From Thermocrinis ruber (GTDB lineage: Bacteria > Aquificota > Aquificia > Aquificales > Aquificaceae), in NCBI RefSeq assembly GCF_000512735.1, contig NZ_CP007028.1, forward strand, positions 1,116,001 through 1,180,000: a DNA stretch of 64,000 nt, read 5' to 3'. The notes under the pieces were generated by a model. The model was not told the origin of the DNA. It was given only the letters and a program-made list of their open reading frames with translations, and made no database searches. The position numbers and the translations under genes were made by a program. Below are positions 5,991 to 31,452 of this stretch, in pieces. Position 1 is the first letter of the stretch. Every line of letters starts with the position of its first letter.

Positions 5991-6002
5991 CAATAATCCT
6001 TG

Positions 6003-6008
6003 TATAAT
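6003..6008 (+). promoter_or_regulatory. -10 box of the Q-rich cytochrome gene
   Basis: TATAAT 20 bases before the ATG, followed by AAGGAGG seven bases before the ATG. I see no good -35. Confidence 0.5.
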
Positions 6009-6028
6009 ACACTTTAAGGAGGTATACC

Positions 6029-6532
6029 ATGAAGAAGACTCTGCTTTTGGGACTTTTCACCCTGGGCTTTTTAGCAGTGTCCTGCCAGCAAAAGCCTGCT
6101 CAGCAACCTGCAGGGGAGCAAAAGCCCGCTGAGCAGCAACAACCTGCTGGCGAACAACAACAGCAGCAGCAACAGCAACAACCTGCCGGTGAACAACAAC
6201 AGCCTGCCCAGCAACCCGCAGGAGAACAAAAACCTGCCGAGAAGCCAAAGTCTGAGGCAAAGCCAGCCCAAACTACCGCAATGGCAGGTGCAGAGGATTT
6301 AGCTAAGGCTAAGGGCTGTTTTGCCTGCCACGATATAAACGCCAAGAAGGTGGGACCCGCCTTTAAGGATGTGGCAAAGAGGTTCGCCGGCAGACCAGAT
6401 GCGGTAGCCCATCTAAGCGAAAGGATCAAGAAAGGTGGGGTTGGTGAATGGGGTAATGTACCAATGCCTCCTCAGAATGTAACCGACGAAGAAGCGAAAA
6501 AGCTCGCAGAGTGGGTTCTCTCTCTTAAGTAA
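6029..6532 (+). CDS. Class I cytochrome c with lipoprotein-type signal and Q/P-rich tether
   Basis: A 167-aa exported cytochrome. Residues 1-18 are a signal peptide ending at Cys19 in LAVSCQQ, a weak lipobox, so lipid anchoring is likely but not certain. Residues 20-88 are a low-complexity linker rich in Q, P, A, E with four PAGEQ units and a run of nine Q. The C-terminal domain is a cytochrome c552 fold: heme motif CFACH, KKVGPAFKDVA and the axial methionine in VPMPPQN. It is a paralogue of the soluble c552 at 45576. It probably carries electrons while tethered in the periplasm. Strong SD AAGGAGG. Confidence 0.9.
   Translation: MKKTLLLGLFTLGFLAVSCQQKPAQQPAGEQKPAEQQQPAGEQQQQQQQQQPAGEQQQPAQQPAGEQKPAEKPKSEAKPAQTTAMAGAEDLAKAKGCFACHDINAKKVGPAFKDVAKRFAGRPDAVAHLSERIKKGGVGEWGNVPMPPQNVTDEEAKKLAEWVLSLK
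6086..6290 (+). repeat. Low-complexity CAG/CAA/CCT-rich coding repeat
   Basis: The DNA of the tether is a degenerate tandem array encoding QQPAGEQ-type units with intermixed CAA and CAG codons. Such arrays can change length by slippage. The opposite strand gives long artificial Cys/Gly reading frames that are not genes. Confidence 0.7.
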
Positions 6533-6538
6533 TTTTTT

Positions 6539-6559
6539 AAAAAAGGGGGCAATGCCCCC
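6539..6559. terminator. Bidirectional terminator between the cytochrome and sqr
   Basis: The hairpin GGGGGC-AAT-GCCCCC (6545-6559) is flanked on the left by six A. On the minus strand this is a six-pair GC stem followed by six T, an intrinsic terminator for sqr. On the plus strand the downstream tract TTCCTTT is poorer, so stopping of the cytochrome transcript may be weaker. Confidence 0.8.
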
Positions 6560-6564
6560 TTCCT

Positions 6565-7857
6565 TTAACACGGACTACAGGGTGTTTCTGAACAATCTGA
6601 ACAGAGAACAACTCCTTTGGTACCAAACAACAGCTTGAGACCTTCCTCTTCAAAGAAAGGTGCAATGTTTCCGCTCTTTATCTTCCACATGAAATACTTT
6701 TCAAAGGCAGATTTTATGTAGTGCGCCCACACGCCTTTGCCAAACTTCACCTCAGCCCTTGGGGGTATAACTGGGTTTGCATAGAAGAAGGCAGCATCCC
6801 TTCCCATGTCCGCAATGCATATGGCAGAGAGCTCTGGGGCATATCTATCTGTAGAGTTTCTTATGTCGCTGATTATGTTCTTTGCCACCGCCATAGCCAT
6901 TTGTTCTATCATCATACCCGTCTTGGGTGCGCCGGTAGGTATGGGCGTTTGTTCTACGGGAGGTATTGCAGTTACTACACCCACACCGTAGATGTTCTTG
7001 TAAGTGGGGTTTTGGAAACACCTGTTGACGATCACCATCTTGTTGGCAGGGTTTGCCACTTTATCTCCAGCGGACGCAACCACCTCTGGACCCATGAACC
7101 TTGGCATCAGCATGGATAGCTTACAAGGCACCTCGTAGGTGTTGCCGTTTAGGTCCTCGTAAATTACCTTGTCTGGTTCCACCTTGGTGATCTTCACGTT
7201 GGCAATCCATTTTATGCTCCTCTCCGCAAAAAGGTCCTCCATTACCCTTCTTGAAGGTCCTACACCACCAAGCCCCATATGACCCACGTAAGGCTCCGAA
7301 GTGATAAAGGTTATGGGCACCTTGTGTCTTATTCCTATTCTTTTAAGCTCATAATGTAGCATAAAGGCAAATTCGTAAGCTGGTCCAAAACAGCTAACTC
7401 CGGGTATTGCACCAACTACAACAGGTCCTGGGTTCTTGTAGAATTCCTCAAGCTTTTTCTGAAGTTCCAGAGAGTGCTCCGCGGCGCATACAGAGGTGGA
7501 GTTTTGCTCTTGCCCCTCTGCACCAAAAACCAGCTTTGGACCAGTGGCAATTACCAAGTAATCGTACTCAATTTCTTTACCGGATGTGGTCCAGAGTTTG
7601 TTGGCATCTGGGTCTATTCTCTCCCCGTTCTCCGGCACATATTCAATACCATGCTTTGGCAGTAAGCTTCCCAAGGGAATAGTTATGTCTTCGAACTTTC
7701 TCCAGCCCAACGCCAAGTGCGGATAAGAGGGTGTAAAACCAAAGTAGGGCCTGCCTGAGACTACTGTGATCCTCAGGCTTTTGTCCATCTTCCTTAGGTT
7801 GTAGGCGGTTGCTAAACCACCTATACCACCACCCAGTATAACCACATGCTTGCTCAT
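6565..7857 (-). CDS. sqr: Sulfide:quinone oxidoreductase, type I
   Basis: A 430-aa flavoprotein that oxidises sulfide to polysulfide and passes electrons to the membrane quinone pool. The N-terminal FAD motif is VVILGGGIGGLATAYNL. The three redox cysteines fall at residues 124, 156 (GVSCFGPAYEF) and 347 (SAICIADMG), exactly the Aquifex aeolicus SQR numbering. The C-terminus has a membrane-facing helix region (FEKYFMWKI) and a Cys-rich end, CSDCSETPCSPC, similar to Aquifex. A perfect inverted repeat covers its promoter, and a strong terminator follows. It is monocistronic. Confidence 0.95.
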   Translation of the reverse strand: MSKHVVILGGGIGGLATAYNLRKMDKSLRITVVSGRPYFGFTPSYPHLALGWRKFEDITIPLGSLLPKHGIEYVPENGERIDPDANKLWTTSGKEIEYDYLVIATGPKLVFGAEGQEQNSTSVCAAEHSLELQKKLEEFYKNPGPVVVGAIPGVSCFGPAYEFAFMLHYELKRIGIRHKVPITFITSEPYVGHMGLGGVGPSRRVMEDLFAERSIKWIANVKITKVEPDKVIYEDLNGNTYEVPCKLSMLMPRFMGPEVVASAGDKVANPANKMVIVNRCFQNPTYKNIYGVGVVTAIPPVEQTPIPTGAPKTGMMIEQMAMAVAKNIISDIRNSTDRYAPELSAICIADMGRDAAFFYANPVIPPRAEVKFGKGVWAHYIKSAFEKYFMWKIKSGNIAPFFEEEGLKLLFGTKGVVLCSDCSETPCSPC

Positions 7858-7880
7858 AACACACCCCCAAAATTAGATTA

Positions 7881-7898
7881 GCTTATAAGATTATAAGC
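7881..7898. promoter_or_regulatory. Perfect inverted repeat over the sqr -10 (candidate operator)
   Basis: GCTTATAA-GA-TTATAAGC is an 8+8 palindrome with a 2-base centre. On the minus strand it contains the sqr -10 TATAAT. A dimeric repressor bound here would block sqr and perhaps the divergent rhomboid gene. Confidence 0.6.
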
Positions 7899-7918
7899 AT
7901 ATTTTAAAGAACAAGCAA
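7890..7918 (-). promoter_or_regulatory. sqr promoter
   Basis: On the minus strand: TTGCTT (7918-7913), 17-base spacer, TATAAT (7895-7890). The start should fall near 7883, leaving a leader of about 26 bases before the ATG. Confidence 0.5.
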
Positions 7919-7923
7919 TCTGT

Positions 7924-7929
7924 TATAAT
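7924..7929 (+). promoter_or_regulatory. -10 box of the rhomboid gene
   Basis: TATAAT ending 11 bases before the ATG at 7941. The predicted mRNA leader is about 5 bases, with no SD. Confidence 0.5.
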
Positions 7930-7940
7930 CTTTGATTGGC

Positions 7941-8597
7941 ATGATCCCTCTAAAGGATATAAACCCAAGCAGAAGCTTTCCAATCGTCAATTTAGCCATC
8001 ATCCTTATTTGCTCTGTAATATGGCTATATGAGGTAAGTTTGGAAAAGTATGAGTTTAACGACTTTATTTATAACTTTGGTTTGGTACCGGCAGAAGCTT
8101 TTTCCAAACCCTACCAGTTGTTTACCCACATGTTTTTACATGGAAGTTGGTTTCACATCATCGGCAATATGTGGTTTTTGTGGGTTTTTGGAGATAATGT
8201 GGAAGATCGTTTAGGAAAGTTTAAATATCTGCTGTTTTATGTGATGTGTGGTCTTGGTGCGGCGGTTATTCAATCCCTTGTTAGTTTTTTAACGGGTGCG
8301 GTGCACGTGCCTATGGTAGGTGCCAGCGGGGCTATAAGTGGGGTACTGGGGGCATACCTTTATCTTTTCCCACATGCCCGCATTCTTGCCCTTGTGCCCG
8401 TTTTCTTTTTTATGACCTTTATGGAATTACCGGCGGTATTTTTTATAGGTATGTGGGTGTTCATTCAGATTATAAACGGACTGATTACACTGCCCTTTGC
8501 AGGTATGGGTGGAGTAGCTTGGTTTGCCCACATAGGTGGATTTTTTGTAGGCTACAAACTCGTTAGAGTGTTTTACAGGAGAAGGTCATATTGGTAG
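7941..8597 (+). CDS. Rhomboid-family intramembrane serine protease
   Basis: A 218-aa polytopic membrane protein. The rhomboid catalytic serine is Ser129 in VGASGAISGVLGAY and the partner histidine is His197 in FAHIGGF. The conserved HMFLHGSWFHIIGNMWFLW of the L1 loop/TM2 is also present. Rhomboids cleave single-pass membrane proteins within the membrane; the substrate is unknown. The ATG at 7941 is preferred to a TTG three codons upstream because the -10 box sits just before it. The end overlaps the mscS start by 7 bases. Confidence 0.9.
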   Translation: MIPLKDINPSRSFPIVNLAIILICSVIWLYEVSLEKYEFNDFIYNFGLVPAEAFSKPYQLFTHMFLHGSWFHIIGNMWFLWVFGDNVEDRLGKFKYLLFYVMCGLGAAVIQSLVSFLTGAVHVPMVGASGAISGVLGAYLYLFPHARILALVPVFFFMTFMELPAVFFIGMWVFIQIINGLITLPFAGMGGVAWFAHIGGFFVGYKLVRVFYRRRSYW

Positions 8598-9598
8598 GGC
8601 AGGAACTTTTGTTGAACAGTTTGATATTTTTGGGATCAATATTGGTTTTGTTGTTCGTTAGAAGGCTATTTTTTGGCTTTATAAAAAAATCTTCCCACGA
8701 CTATGCGGTAATGCTTCTTCGGGTACTCCGCCTACCTTCTTTGTTTTGGGCAATTATTATTAGCCTTTACCTTACGGTAGAGCTCAACCCTGGGCAACTT
8801 TCGGGGTACTCCTCGGTAGTAGAAAAGGTTTTAATATCCCTATTGATCCTTTCTATAACCTCGTTTTTTTCTAATCTTCTTCCCGAACTTTTGCAGGTTT
8901 ATATTTCAAAGGCAAACTTAAAATTTCCCAGAACTGGTATTGTCTTTGTGATAATTAAACTGTTCGTCTTTATTTTGGGTGTTATAACCCTCCTGTCCTA
9001 TTTTGGCATTCAGGTAGCCCATTTTATAACTACCCTGGGCATTGCTGGACTTGCGGTCTCCCTTGCCCTTCAGGGCACGCTTTCTAACATCTTTTCCGGG
9101 CTTAACCTAATTGCCAGCAGACAGATTGAAGTGGGAGATTTTATTAGGTTAGAAAACGGTGAAGAAGGTTATGTGGAAGACATAACATGGATGAACACAG
9201 TCATTAGGAGGAGGGACAACAACCTTGTGGTGGTGCCAAACTCCCGTTTGGTTAACTCCATAGTAATAAACTACGGAAAACCAACGCCCTCAATGAACAT
9301 TACAGTTTCCGTTGTGATCCCATATTCTTCGGACCTTGAAAAAGCAGAAAGGCTCGCCTTAGAGGTTGCAAGGGAGGTGCAAAAAACCGTTGAAGGTGCA
9401 GACCCAAGCTTTGAGCCATCCGTGCGCTACAGTGCCTTTACAGAGTTTGGGATCACCTTAAACATCACTCTTAGAGTTCTTAACCCAGACAGTCAGTTTC
9501 TTATCCGCCACGAGTTTATAAAGAGGCTCAAAAAGGCCTACGAGAGGGAGGGAATAGCCTTCATTCAACTTTTAGTACCACCTTTCCGAAGTGCTTAG
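8591..9598 (+). CDS. Mechanosensitive ion channel, MscS family
   Basis: A 335-aa channel that releases solutes on hypo-osmotic shock. Several N-terminal membrane segments are followed by the pore helix region FITTLGIAGLAVSLALQGTLSNIFSGL, then the beta-domain motifs IEVGDFIRLENGEEGYVEDI and VVVPNSRLVNS. The start is TTG, inside the rhomboid stop region; the next methionine is 41 codons later and too late to keep the first helix. The 3' end overlaps the convergent dehydrogenase by 38 bases. Confidence 0.9.
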   Translation: MVGQELLLNSLIFLGSILVLLFVRRLFFGFIKKSSHDYAVMLLRVLRLPSLFWAIIISLYLTVELNPGQLSGYSSVVEKVLISLLILSITSFFSNLLPELLQVYISKANLKFPRTGIVFVIIKLFVFILGVITLLSYFGIQVAHFITTLGIAGLAVSLALQGTLSNIFSGLNLIASRQIEVGDFIRLENGEEGYVEDITWMNTVIRRRDNNLVVVPNSRLVNSIVINYGKPTPSMNITVSVVIPYSSDLEKAERLALEVAREVQKTVEGADPSFEPSVRYSAFTEFGITLNITLRVLNPDSQFLIRHEFIKRLKKAYEREGIAFIQLLVPPFRSA

Positions 9599-10592
9599 AG
9601 CTTTCCAAATATCTGTGGGCTTCTTGGGCATCCTTGAGGTCAAAAACCTTATCCACCACTGGCTTTAAAAGCCCCCTCTCAAAAAGTTCGGTGATCTTAA
9701 AGAGGTCTGCCCTTGGTCCCATATAAACACCCAAAAGTTCAATTTCCCTAACAAAAACATACCTTATATCTATCTCCGCCTTTGAACCCGTGGTAGTGCC
9801 AAAGAAAACAAGCCTTCCACCCTTTTTAAGACATTCCACGCTTCTCCAAAAGGTCGCCTCCCCCACATGGTCCATAACAATATCCACTCCCTCTTTGAAC
9901 AGTCCTCTAACCTTCTTTACCACATCCTCCTCATAGTGGTTTATGACTACATCTGCCCCAAGGTCTTTGCACATCTTTGCCTTCCTTTCGTCCCCTGCAG
10001 TAGCTATCACAAAAGCACCAAAGAGCTTGGCTATTTGAATACCTGCCACGCCCACACCCGAGGAACCAGCCCATATTAAAACCCTACTGTGGGGCTTTAA
10101 CCCTCCCTTTCTAACCAAGGCATTCCAGACGGTTAAAAAGGTAAGGGGATAGCTGGCGGACTCTTCGAAGCTCAAGTTTTTTGGCTTTGGCAAAACATTC
10201 CTTGCGGGCACCTTTACAAACTCCGCATAACCACCTTTGCTTCTTAGCCCAAGTATATCGTAATCTTTACAGAGGTTGTCCCTTCCAGACTGACACTCAT
10301 AACACACACCACAGGACAGACCGGGAGCAACTATTACCTCATCTCCCACCTTTACATTCTTCACCAAAGAACCAACCCTTTCTACCACACCGCTAACATC
10401 TGAACCAAGGATGTGAGGAAGTTCTGGCTTGACCGCCAAAGCACCCATTCTGACCCATATATCCAGGTGATTAAGGGCAACCGCCTTCACCCTAACAAGG
10501 ACTTCATCCTCCATTATATCCGGGATGGGAAAATCCTCTACATACTTTAGGTTCTTTTCGTCTCCAAAGTTCTCTAAAATAACCACTTTCAT
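9561..10592 (-). CDS. Zinc-type alcohol dehydrogenase / quinone oxidoreductase family protein
   Basis: A 343-aa MDR-superfamily oxidoreductase. The N-terminal GroES-like domain has the structural zinc cysteines in CGVCYECQSGRDNLC and a catalytic-domain HILGSDVSGVVERVG. The Rossmann domain has WAGSSGVGVAGIQIAKLFGA, which binds NAD(P)H. It could be an alcohol dehydrogenase, crotonyl-CoA reductase-like enzyme or quinone reductase; substrate cannot be read from sequence. Apparently cotranscribed with, and downstream of, the diguanylate cyclase (9-base gap). Confidence 0.85.
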   Translation of the reverse strand: MKVVILENFGDEKNLKYVEDFPIPDIMEDEVLVRVKAVALNHLDIWVRMGALAVKPELPHILGSDVSGVVERVGSLVKNVKVGDEVIVAPGLSCGVCYECQSGRDNLCKDYDILGLRSKGGYAEFVKVPARNVLPKPKNLSFEESASYPLTFLTVWNALVRKGGLKPHSRVLIWAGSSGVGVAGIQIAKLFGAFVIATAGDERKAKMCKDLGADVVINHYEEDVVKKVRGLFKEGVDIVMDHVGEATFWRSVECLKKGGRLVFFGTTTGSKAEIDIRYVFVREIELLGVYMGPRADLFKITELFERGLLKPVVDKVFDLKDAQEAHRYLESSKHFGKVVLKVE

Positions 10593-10601
10593 AGAAGGAT
10601 A

Positions 10602-11627
10602 TTATAGGGCTTTTTTCTTTTTATCCTCATACATAAGTCTGTCTGCCTCTTTAATCATATCCAACCAGCTTTGAAAGTTTTCTCCACATTGCACAACACC
10701 CGCACTTATAGACACTTTAAACCTCCTACCCTCTGCAAGTATTTCCATTTTCTCTAGTTGGGACTTTAACCTTTCAACAATTTTTTTTGCATTTTCCAAA
10801 TCCGTGTTTGGCATTATAGCCACAAACTCATCTCCACCCCAACGACCCACTATATCCTTTGCACGCATGTTCGTTCTTAAAACCTTTGCCACCTTTGCTA
10901 ACACAAGGTCTCCCACATGATGCCCATAGTTATCGTTCACATACTTAAAATCATCAAGGTCTATAAGAATCAAACTAAAAGTCATCTTAGAGTACTTGCA
11001 CAAGCTAAAAAACTCCTCAAGAGCTCTCTCCAAAGAACGTCTGTTAAACAGATCAGTTAATGGATCAAGATTTGCCTCCGCCTCGACCGTTTCAAGCTTG
11101 GACTTCAACTCGTTTATAATCTTCTGCTGAGCCTCCACCTTTTTCAAAAAGATCTCGTTCTGATGCTTTAAGTCTCTTACAAGCATTAACAACTCCAAAA
11201 GAATAGACGTTACAAAATCCTCTCTAGCTTCTTCTTTTTTTTGTAGCTCGGTTATCCTTTGCTCTTTTATGGACGCTTGCTCGTAGCTCTCTTTTAAGGA
11301 TTTTTGAAGCTCAGCAATTATATCGCTTAAAACCTGAGCAGTGTGCTTGAGGTCTATTTTAATGTTTACAAGGTCGCTTTCTTCCTTATAAATACTATTA
11401 TAAAACTCCATTAAAACACTGTCTTCAAGCTTTTGCCCGCTTGCAACAAGATTACAAAATATATAAAACCATCTTTCATAGTTTTTGGGTGTGGGCAGTA
11501 TTTGATTTCTCAGCAAGAATTTTATTTCCTCCCTAACTATATCCGCCAAGAGTTCTTTCTCAGATTGGCTAAGGGGCTCTCCTCTACTTAGCTTTTCGTA
11601 AAGAGGACAGTTTTTTGTATCAAACAT
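10602..11627 (-). CDS. Diguanylate cyclase (GGDEF domain)
   Basis: 341 aa. The C-terminal third is a GGDEF domain that makes cyclic di-GMP: LDPLTDLFNRRSLE at 188-200, the active-site GGDEF at 264-268, and an intact inhibitory I-site RAKD at 255-258, five residues before it. The N-terminal part has PTPKNYERWFY, typical of an N-terminal helical module in bacterial diguanylate cyclases, followed by coiled coil (about 105-185) for dimerisation. No membrane segment is seen, so it is cytoplasmic. No EAL or PilZ protein is visible in the window. Confidence 0.92.
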   Translation of the reverse strand: MFDTKNCPLYEKLSRGEPLSQSEKELLADIVREEIKFLLRNQILPTPKNYERWFYIFCNLVASGQKLEDSVLMEFYNSIYKEESDLVNIKIDLKHTAQVLSDIIAELQKSLKESYEQASIKEQRITELQKKEEAREDFVTSILLELLMLVRDLKHQNEIFLKKVEAQQKIINELKSKLETVEAEANLDPLTDLFNRRSLERALEEFFSLCKYSKMTFSLILIDLDDFKYVNDNYGHHVGDLVLAKVAKVLRTNMRAKDIVGRWGGDEFVAIMPNTDLENAKKIVERLKSQLEKMEILAEGRRFKVSISAGVVQCGENFQSWLDMIKEADRLMYEDKKKKAL

Positions 11628-29249: not shown

Positions 29250-29351
29250 TTAGCCAAACAGTTCCCTCCAGAGCCCCTTAGCCCACTCTTCATACCTCTT
29301 TGCGGTTATTTCTTTCCTCCTTTCCTTATAACCGCCCAGAGCCAATTGCAA
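29250..29351 (-). CDS. Candidate small ORF downstream of the Rieske gene
   Basis: A 33-codon frame (TTG start; LQLALGGYKERRKEITAKRY then EEWAKGLWRELFG) ends at 29250 and follows the Rieske stop by 14 bases. The frame stays open a little further upstream into the Rieske gene, without an ATG. Amino-acid make-up resembles native proteins here (K/E/R rich, aromatic). There is no clear SD. It may be a real small protein, or the remnant of one; low confidence. Confidence 0.25.
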   Translation of the reverse strand: MQLALGGYKERRKEITAKRYEEWAKGLWRELFG

Positions 29352-29365
29352 CTTCGCCCTTTCTA

Positions 29366-30082
29366 CTAACAGTGAATGACTTGTTTCACGTATTTACTCA
29401 CCTCCATAACAACACATCTATCCACAAGTTCCCTTGCCTTTGCAATGCTACCGTAGGCTTCCCTTAACTCTCTTCTGTAAGTTTCAAAGAACCGATTGAA
29501 CTGATCCACTCCCAAAATGCCAATGGCGTAGAATTTGCCACCTTCTTCCTGTATAACCACTGATGCCAGAGGAACTTCCGGTGGTCCATCAATAACCTTT
29601 CCCCCTTCCTTTGGGTCGTAAAGTCCCAAGTGGGCACAGCATTGTATTACACCAGATTTCTTTGTAATCTCGGAAGGTTTGTCCGGAGGATAGTAGTTTA
29701 TAAAGGAGTACTGCTTCGTGGGATAGCTCCATTGGTGGGCACAGATGGCGGAGTATGCCACTATGCTCTTTTTGCTTCCTACTCCACCTTGCCATTTGTA
29801 AGTTTTGCCATCCTTTAGCTTAACATCCACTGGTTTTACCTCTTCCCCGAGGTTTATCAAATAGCAAGGCGTGCTTGCGTAGGGGTAAAAGAATATGTAG
29901 GCATTGTGAGGCTTAAGGTCTTCCTCCCTGAGAGGAGAACCATCCTCCTTTACAAGCAAGGCCTTTTTGTATGCTTTAAACATTCCCTCCTGTGCGGAGA
30001 GCATATTGGAAAACACAGAAGGGTCTATCATAGATGCTACAGCAACCGTACTACACACCTTTAAAAAATCTCTTCTGTCCAT
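29366..30082 (-). CDS. Tat-exported Rieske-type [2Fe-2S] protein
   Basis: 238 aa. The N-terminus DRRDFLKVCSTVAVASM is a twin-arginine signal or anchor. The cluster boxes are CAH in ICAHQWS and CCAH in QCCAHLGLYD, 34 residues apart: Cys/His ligands for a Rieske cluster. The extra cysteines that form the disulfide in cytochrome bc1 Rieske proteins (CTHLGC, CPCHGS) are missing. GGAGG 8 bases before ATG 30082 sets the start (TTG 30097 is rejected). It follows the FccB-like gene and a hairpin, suggesting it accepts electrons from that flavoprotein. Confidence 0.85.
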   Translation of the reverse strand: MDRRDFLKVCSTVAVASMIDPSVFSNMLSAQEGMFKAYKKALLVKEDGSPLREEDLKPHNAYIFFYPYASTPCYLINLGEEVKPVDVKLKDGKTYKWQGGVGSKKSIVAYSAICAHQWSYPTKQYSFINYYPPDKPSEITKKSGVIQCCAHLGLYDPKEGGKVIDGPPEVPLASVVIQEEGGKFYAIGILGVDQFNRFFETYRRELREAYGSIAKARELVDRCVVMEVSKYVKQVIHC

Positions 30083-30111
30083 ATCTAAAACCTCCAATGT
30101 GTAGTGTAAAC

Positions 30112-30126
30112 GCCCCCAGAGGGGGC
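30112..30126 (-). terminator. Terminator-like hairpin between fccB-type and Rieske genes
   Basis: GCCCCC-AGA-GGGGGC forms a six-pair GC stem. On the minus strand it lies just after the fccB-type stop and is followed by GTTTAC, a poor U-tract. It may be an attenuator or an mRNA stabiliser giving unequal amounts of the two proteins. Confidence 0.5.
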
Positions 30127-30135
30127 CTTACCACA

Positions 30136-31452
30136 TTATGCGAACATATCTCTGTATATAGCCTTTGCCCACTCGTAGGTAGCGTCCGCCAACGCCTTTG
30201 AACGCTCGTTGATAACCTTTGGTTTGGGTTCGATCTTTCCGTCCTTTAGCTCGTATGTAACGCTTATGACTATTGCCTCTTGAGGATCGCCGTTTACCAT
30301 AGAGTAGCACGTGTTGTCGGGAAGGGTGGGCTTGTACTCCTTGCCCTTGATCCTTGAAGCTATGATCTTGGCTACGATCTTACCTTGGGAGTTTGCCATG
30401 TGTCCGCTCTTGGGATAAGGAACGCCACCGATGACATCTCCCACCAAGAATACATTGGGGTCCGCCTTTGCTTGGAAGGTGATGGGGTCTTGATCTGCCC
30501 ATCCGGTAGGCTTGCCGTCTTTGTCCTTTGCTATGAGGTCTGCCATCCACACTAAATCACCCGCTTGATGGGGTGGAACCAAGTTAGCATCTGCAAACTT
30601 GAAGTCTCCTGCGGTGGTCTTTATGATTTTCTTTACAGGGTCTACTTCTTTTATGACCGCATTTGGCACATACTCTACTATGCCGAGGTAGAGTTGCTCA
30701 TAAGCTGCCCTAAAGCCCGGACCTTTGGGTGCTATGTCTCCCTTGGGATCAAGAATAATCACCCTTCCTTTTACCTTGTTCTTTTTAAAGACATAGGCGA
30801 TCATTGCTGCCCTCTCGTAGGGTGCTGGTGGGCATCTGTATGCACCAGGAGGAACTGTAATTACAAAATCACCTTCTTCAAACTCCCAGATTTTCCTCTT
30901 TAGTGCAAGATGTTCAGAACCGGGTATGTAGGCAGGTGGGTAATGCACCCTTGCATACTCAGCCATCTGCTTGTCATCCTTGAACCATGCGGAGTAGTTG
31001 TATCTTATACCCGGCGCCAGTACCAAGTAGTTGTATTCAATGTAGCCCTGAGGGGTATAAACTCTCTTCTTGTCCCTTTCTATTCCTAATACAGTCGCAT
31101 TGATGAACTTGTAGCCATACTTGGCGGCGGGTTGATTGTAATCGTGGGATAGGAAATCAAGGGAAACCAAGTCTGCAAGCCATTCGTTAGATATGGGGCA
31201 GGAGAAGAAGTTAGGTCTTTTTTCAATTAGGACCACTTCAATGTTGGGGTCTTCCTTTTTGAGGTATTTGGCTACTGTTAAACCTGCCCATCCTCCACCG
31301 CATACTACCACCCTGTTTCCTTTGGGTGGCGGAAGCATGGCTCCCATCTTACCCACCTTTTCGGCAGCGGCAAAGGAAGACTTTGAAGGCAATGCAGACA
31401 CAAGGGCACCTACACCTGCAAGCTTAAAAAGGTCCCTCCTGCTTACACTCAT
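30136..31452 (-). CDS. fccB: Flavocytochrome c sulfide dehydrogenase, flavoprotein subunit (FccB/SoxF-type)
   Basis: 438 aa with Tat signal SRRDLFKLAGVGALVSALP and FAD motif VVVCGGGWAGLTVAKYL. Cys85 (FFSCPISNEW) matches the covalent FAD cysteine of Allochromatium FccB after removal of the signal. Cys207 (AYRCPPAPYER) and Cys382 (NTCYSMV) match the redox-active pair. It oxidises sulfide in the periplasm. No cytochrome FccA is adjacent; a Rieske protein is instead. AGGAGGTGG precedes the ATG. Confidence 0.92.
   Translation of the reverse strand: MSVSRRDLFKLAGVGALVSALPSKSSFAAAEKVGKMGAMLPPPKGNRVVVCGGGWAGLTVAKYLKKEDPNIEVVLIEKRPNFFSCPISNEWLADLVSLDFLSHDYNQPAAKYGYKFINATVLGIERDKKRVYTPQGYIEYNYLVLAPGIRYNYSAWFKDDKQMAEYARVHYPPAYIPGSEHLALKRKIWEFEEGDFVITVPPGAYRCPPAPYERAAMIAYVFKKNKVKGRVIILDPKGDIAPKGPGFRAAYEQLYLGIVEYVPNAVIKEVDPVKKIIKTTAGDFKFADANLVPPHQAGDLVWMADLIAKDKDGKPTGWADQDPITFQAKADPNVFLVGDVIGGVPYPKSGHMANSQGKIVAKIIASRIKGKEYKPTLPDNTCYSMVNGDPQEAIVISVTYELKDGKIEPKPKVINERSKALADATYEWAKAIYRDMFA

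Follow-up and report, generated by a model that had tools for sequence, protein, structure and literature searches.

A Rieske protein as the probable electron exit of an FccB-type sulfide dehydrogenase in Thermocrinis ruber and other Aquificota

FccB enzymes are taught as flavocytochromes. In the complete genome of Thermocrinis ruber (1.52 Mb, single contig), the gene next to an FccB-type flavoprotein gene encodes a Rieske protein, which raises the question of where the electrons of the flavoprotein go. We analyzed this locus within a 64,000-nucleotide stretch of the genome (the window) and compared it with loci from other Aquificota. Four features are of interest:

30136-31452, minus strand: fccB1, an open reading frame for an FccB-type sulfide dehydrogenase flavoprotein of 438 aa with an RR signal
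30112-30126, minus strand: a G+C-rich hairpin, GCCCCC-tct-GGGGGC, directly after the fccB1 stop
29366-30082, minus strand: rieske, an open reading frame for a Rieske [2Fe-2S] protein of 238 aa (counted from the ATG) with a Tat-type RR signal
29250-29321, minus strand: fccB2 remnant, the last 23 codons (RRKEITAKRYEEWAKGLWRELFG) and the stop, the remainder of the gene being deleted

FccB1 has both the domains and the residues of an FccB. Pfam FCSD_central (PF21706; 1.8e-27, 96 bits) and FCSD-flav_bind (PF09242; 38.8 bits) scored above their cut-offs, sequence matches to PDB entries 5n1t, 1fcd and 3vrd had E-values of 4e-58 to 8e-55, and the predicted fold (pLDDT 89.3) matched 5n1t with TM scores of 0.81/0.90. 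An earlier note on this DNA had stated that the flavoprotein keeps functional cysteines 85, 207 and 382. Alignment to the A. vinosum protein agrees, pairing Cys85 with the FAD-linking Cys42 and the redox pair Cys207 and Cys382 with Cys161 and Cys337, and it also places Glu213 of the PYERA motif at the active-site Glu167. The catalytic Cys and Glu residues were present in every FccB1, FccB2 and FccB3 examined, and dN/dS for fccB1 was 0.07 against a close relative. The FccAB enzymes of A. vinosum (1FCD), T. tepidum (3VRD) and T. paradoxus (5N1T) have in common with the Aquificota proteins the flavoprotein fold, the FAD-linking Cys, the redox Cys pair, the Glu and export, which is predicted for the Aquificota proteins. 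In contrast to FccAB, the Aquificota module has no FccA cytochrome, the rieske gene following instead, and its FccBs form a separate, long-branched group in the tree.

The fccB1 and rieske genes are co-directional, with 53 bases between them. The rieske frame was listed from a TTG at 30097; the ATG at 30082, which lies behind GGAGG, is the better start. That this neighbor encodes a Rieske protein and not a diheme cytochrome, as previously proposed, is supported by both its boxes and its fold. CxH and CxxH boxes (C114-A-H116 and C148-C149-A-H151) lie in a Rieske fold, and the ligands C114/H116 and C148/H151 were invariant in an alignment of 24 homologues. Foldseek returned AioB and SoxF as the folds nearest to the AlphaFold model (pLDDT 88.5), and a family profile compared with the PDB matched SoxF first (1.9e-12) and AioB at 8e-11, while the Pfam Rieske match was borderline (19.7 bits against a cut-off of 20.3). 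Archaeal SoxF/SoxL2 (TIGR03171) is the best profile match, the PC(Y/F)L motif region included, although the protein studied here has no adjoining cytochrome b partner and has lost the disulfide positions. Membership of either named family was rejected, the scores being 93 bits against the SoxL2 (TIGR03171) equivalog cut-off of 582 and 39.9 bits against the AioB family cut-off of 95.65. Nor does the protein have the AioA neighbor of an AioB; it is a separate Rieske protein (L065) that adjoins a molybdoenzyme-like ORF.

The CAH and CCAH boxes had been described as lacking both cysteines that form the disulfide of bc1-type Rieske proteins. The alignment bears this out, with Ser119 and Ala150 at those positions, and the disulfide that joins the two cluster loops in the bc1 type is accordingly absent. 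The further expectation of a changed potential and stability is unsafe. AioB subunits exist with and without the disulfide; adding it to the NT-26 protein brought the potential down by 35 mV without a change in stability, and removing it from another AioB had no effect on potential (PMC3758308). The absent disulfide does not predict the potential of the Rieske protein here. Judged by its sequence, the protein is not cysteine-poor: Cys149, beside a ligand, and the C-terminal Cys238 are invariant in Aquificota and gammaproteobacterial homologues, and Cys73 is nearly invariant.

Both proteins were also said to have twin-arginine signals. The RR motif is present at both N-termini, and in the Rieske protein it is invariant across the 24 homologues, but Tat profile scores fell below the cut-offs for both proteins. 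The motifs suggest that FccB1 and the Rieske protein are exported. No weight was given to the conserved signal residue Cys10, because redox enzymes often carry RRxFxKxC in their Tat signals.

The conservation of the gene pair was surveyed in 136 Aquificota genomes, with matches of E below 1e-20 taken as FccB-level; weaker matches look like sulfide:quinone reductases. The set of genomes with a true FccB and the set with the Rieske protein are identical and number 61, neither protein occurring without the other; because the genomes are related, this is not a count of independent events. They span 11 genera in two families. The two genes are adjacent on the same strand in all but one of the 61, the exception lying at a contig edge, and the association is not due to chance. 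One weak Rieske match (G030; 8e-4), of AioB-like length and from a genome with no FccB-level match, was taken as unrelated and left out of the counts. The surroundings of the module vary by genus and include sox genes, acetolactate synthase-like genes, a two-component system or rpmI; in Hydrogenothermaceae it lies within a soxXYZAB cluster. In a scan of a genome collection, Rieske homologues outside Aquificota were found in proteobacterial metagenome-assembled genomes (MAGs) and one symbiont genome, none of them beside fccB by the strict peptide patterns used, which more distant pairs could escape. No relative was found in viral contigs.

We also looked for a cytochrome that could take the usual place of FccA. 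Queries with PF00034, PF13442 and SoxE-like cytochromes identified two c552 cytochromes (monoheme, one of them lipoprotein-like), the bc1 cytochrome c1, a 476-aa membrane monoheme protein and a probable SoxXA pair in the T. ruber genome. There was no diheme FccA among these or adjoining fccB1, no SoxE-like cytochrome was recovered, and no examined Aquificota locus had a diheme cytochrome beside fccB. The locus thus lacks the diheme FccA subunit of a flavocytochrome c (FccAB). With the pair conserved across Aquificota and no FccA found in the genome itself, neither outcome that the earlier note had named as fatal to its proposal, an fccA elsewhere whose product binds this flavoprotein or a pair confined to this genome, was encountered. 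Among those visible, the nearest FccBs outside Aquificota are from Paracoccus, Allomeiothermus and Phyllobacterium plasmids, where the neighbors are c-type cytochromes with SoxYZ or SoxC and not a Rieske protein. The flavoproteins resemble those of SoxEF/SoxF in being FccB-type and, in Hydrogenothermaceae and the Paracoccus and Phyllobacterium plasmids, sox-linked; compared with SoxEF, the Rieske protein is added to, or replaces, the SoxE-like cytochrome.

The gene arrangement itself has been reported before. In 2012, a Rieske gene was reported between dhsU1 and dhsU2, by sox genes, in the Sulfurihydrogenibium-like uncultured 'LSSB' (PMC3504083), and both dhsU genes were followed in situ in 2016 without mention of the Rieske gene (PMC4912159). 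No paper assigning a role to this Rieske protein was found in the open-licence literature. The LSSB cluster has the same arrangement in the same phylum, and sulfide:cytochrome c activity was measured for its flavoprotein; the Thermocrinis form differs in having no dhsU2/fccB2 and in lying outside a sox cluster. The present analysis establishes the phylum-wide linkage and the loss of fccB2.

That loss is seen in the remnant at 29250-29321, which encodes the FccB2 C-terminus; RRKEITAKRYEEWAKGLWRELFG is 96% identical to that of G056 (L084) by tblastn (E about 1e-14 in a small search) and 91% identical to the counterpart in L082, indicating that all of fccB2 except its tail has been deleted. The usual order is fccB1-rieske-fccB2, with an FccB upstream of rieske in 59 genomes, downstream in 36 and on both sides in 35, counts that are lowered by contig ends. 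The gene content indicates that the pair in the window is a reduced triad and that the ancestral module had two flavoproteins around one Rieske protein. The previously proposed two-protein unit therefore holds in that the pair is strongly conserved, but the ancestral unit had a second flavoprotein, lost here. A related genome (G052) retains only the C-terminal 155 aa of FccB2, and FccB with Rieske but no intact FccB2 neighbor also occurs in G035, G038, G044, G051, G058, G060 and G062. One locus (L077 of G021, 5997-10667) has three fccB genes around one rieske, in the order fccB-fccB-rieske-fccB2. Stops or frameshifts break the module in L085 (G054, ~7279-9233), L084 (G056, 8463-9277) and L159 (G026, ~6470-7730), most clearly in G054, where fccB1 and rieske are broken, and in G026; sequencing error is possible in MAGs.

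Which flavoprotein the Rieske protein serves was approached through divergence. Downstream FccB2 proteins form one clade (99/98 support), while upstream FccBs split among three groups, which indicates that the upstream gene has been exchanged in place between subfamilies several times. Across 12 triads, Rieske distances correlated at 0.93 with FccB2 and at 0.60 with the upstream FccB; these are simple identity distances that still include shared species history. Only four genomes, all Hydrogenothermaceae, have a SoxE-like monoheme cytochrome ahead of the upstream FccB; the two of them that were read completely carry an FccB of the FccA-linked type in that position. Since its divergence tracks FccB2 and its upstream partner has been swapped, the Rieske protein seems to be an electron acceptor common to more than one flavoprotein.

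The intergenic stretch between fccB1 and rieske had an RNA fold z of -1.98. Of nine relatives checked, six (L084, L082, L068, L069, L070 and L086) have a hairpin at the corresponding position but with a different stem sequence, and such a hairpin may keep FccB more abundant than Rieske and thereby set their stoichiometry.

With moderate confidence, we favor an exported sulfide-oxidizing module in which the Rieske protein does the job of the FccA or SoxE cytochrome; it probably adjoins FccB in Aquificota because it carries electrons away in that cytochrome's place. The flavoprotein would oxidize sulfide to sulfane sulfur at Cys207/Cys382, and a Rieske protein, either soluble or anchored by its signal, would take electrons singly from FAD and hand them on to a c-type cytochrome of the periplasm (c552); it may form a complex with FccB1. 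Sulfide-FAD-Rieske-c552 is the most likely route; we infer sulfide as the substrate, direct FAD-to-Rieske transfer and c552 as the acceptor. The last step is drawn by analogy with arsenite oxidase, whose Rieske subunit AioB reduces cytochrome c (PMC5574378). AioB would be alike in being a Tat-exported Rieske protein that takes electrons from its enzyme partner and delivers them to a c-type cytochrome, and some AioBs also have no disulfide; however, its partner is a molybdoenzyme, and the Thermocrinis protein differs in its C-terminal extension and CCAH second box. This explanation is supported by the complete co-occurrence and near-complete adjacency, the failure to find a diheme cytochrome in the loci examined or in the T. 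ruber genome, the kinship of the Rieske fold with AioB and SoxF, the FccB fold with its retained catalytic residues, and the sulfide oxidation and cytochrome c reduction measured for DhsU1 (PMC3504083). Counting against the electron-exit explanation are the activity of DhsU1 without the Rieske protein, the exchange of upstream FccBs while the Rieske protein stayed, its tracking of an FccB2 that this genome has lost, the gammaproteobacterial homologues not beside fccB and the hairpin, which suggests unequal expression.

The same observations leave room for FccB1 to reduce c552 directly, like monomeric SoxF or DhsU1, with the Rieske protein serving mainly FccB2 or another step and being left over or minor here. 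We consider this unlikely. In its favor, recombinant DhsU1 oxidized sulfide with horse cytochrome c in the absence of the Rieske protein (Km 16.7 and 52 uM, the latter for cytochrome c), showing that catalysis in Sulfurihydrogenibium does not require it (PMC3504083). Rieske divergence tracks FccB2, the gene deleted here, and a close relative shows decay, with fccB1 and rieske broken. Against it, the rieske frame is intact, its ligands are kept and its dN/dS is 0.05 versus G052, a figure that is not specific to the time since fccB2 loss; several genomes also retain FccB and Rieske without FccB2, and this speaks for a two-gene form that works.

A very improbable alternative is that the Rieske protein works in reverse or on a different substrate; it might, for instance, supply the flavoprotein with electrons to reduce sulfane or polysulfide, or Cys149 and Cys238 might carry sulfur. 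Both the invariance of these cysteines and the position of the Hydrogenothermaceae module in a soxXYZAB cluster fit such a role. However, the same cysteines occur in gammaproteobacterial homologues encoded beside genes for formate dehydrogenase or glycolate oxidase, a setting that speaks against a function specific to sulfur, and the catalytic set of the flavoprotein is of the sulfide oxidation type. A frozen neighborhood without functional coupling is slightly less credible still: the evidence is gene order and co-occurrence in related, non-independent genomes, but the module stays together in different surroundings across genera and its upstream FccB has been replaced several times in place.

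Beyond electron exit through the Rieske protein, we tentatively propose, at a little under even chances, a distinct Aquificota class of sulfide dehydrogenase in which a Rieske protein common to two FccBs replaces the cytochrome, with a one-flavoprotein form in Thermocrinis. If, throughout the phylum, it is the Rieske protein that accepts the electrons in vivo, then sulfide dehydrogenase can exchange the subunit through which its electrons leave. The scheme of sulfide oxidation by these primary producers of hot springs would then have to be redrawn, and a Rieske protein outside the respiratory type would acquire a definite partner. One-flavoprotein genomes such as that of T. ruber offer the simplest test ground.

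Three further observations concern relatives of these proteins. The Rieske homologues of L134-L148 (33-40% identity), from gammaproteobacterial and other proteobacterial MAGs and a Chromatiales symbiont, keep the CxH box, the CC pair and the C-terminal Cys; their second box reads CCSEG, CCSER or CCSEH (for example L137:5977-6723 and L139:6001-6726), with Glu in place of the second cluster His (His151), so the cluster may have unusual ligands. Many adjoin formate dehydrogenase or glycolate oxidase genes, and the Pfam Rieske model did not match the two that were tested. Five Hydrogenobacter-type loci (L151, L152, L153, L154 and L155) hold a third, unlinked FccB paralogue with no cytochrome beside it; its neighbors are a PAS-domain sensor and a response regulator, and a regulated sulfide enzyme or sensor component is a possible reading. 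Elsewhere in the window, a gene for an SQR-like flavoprotein (6565-7857, minus strand) is convergent to one for a lipoprotein-like cytochrome c552 with a Gln/Pro-rich linker (6029-6532, plus strand), and the genome may therefore have a second, quinone-linked sulfide route.
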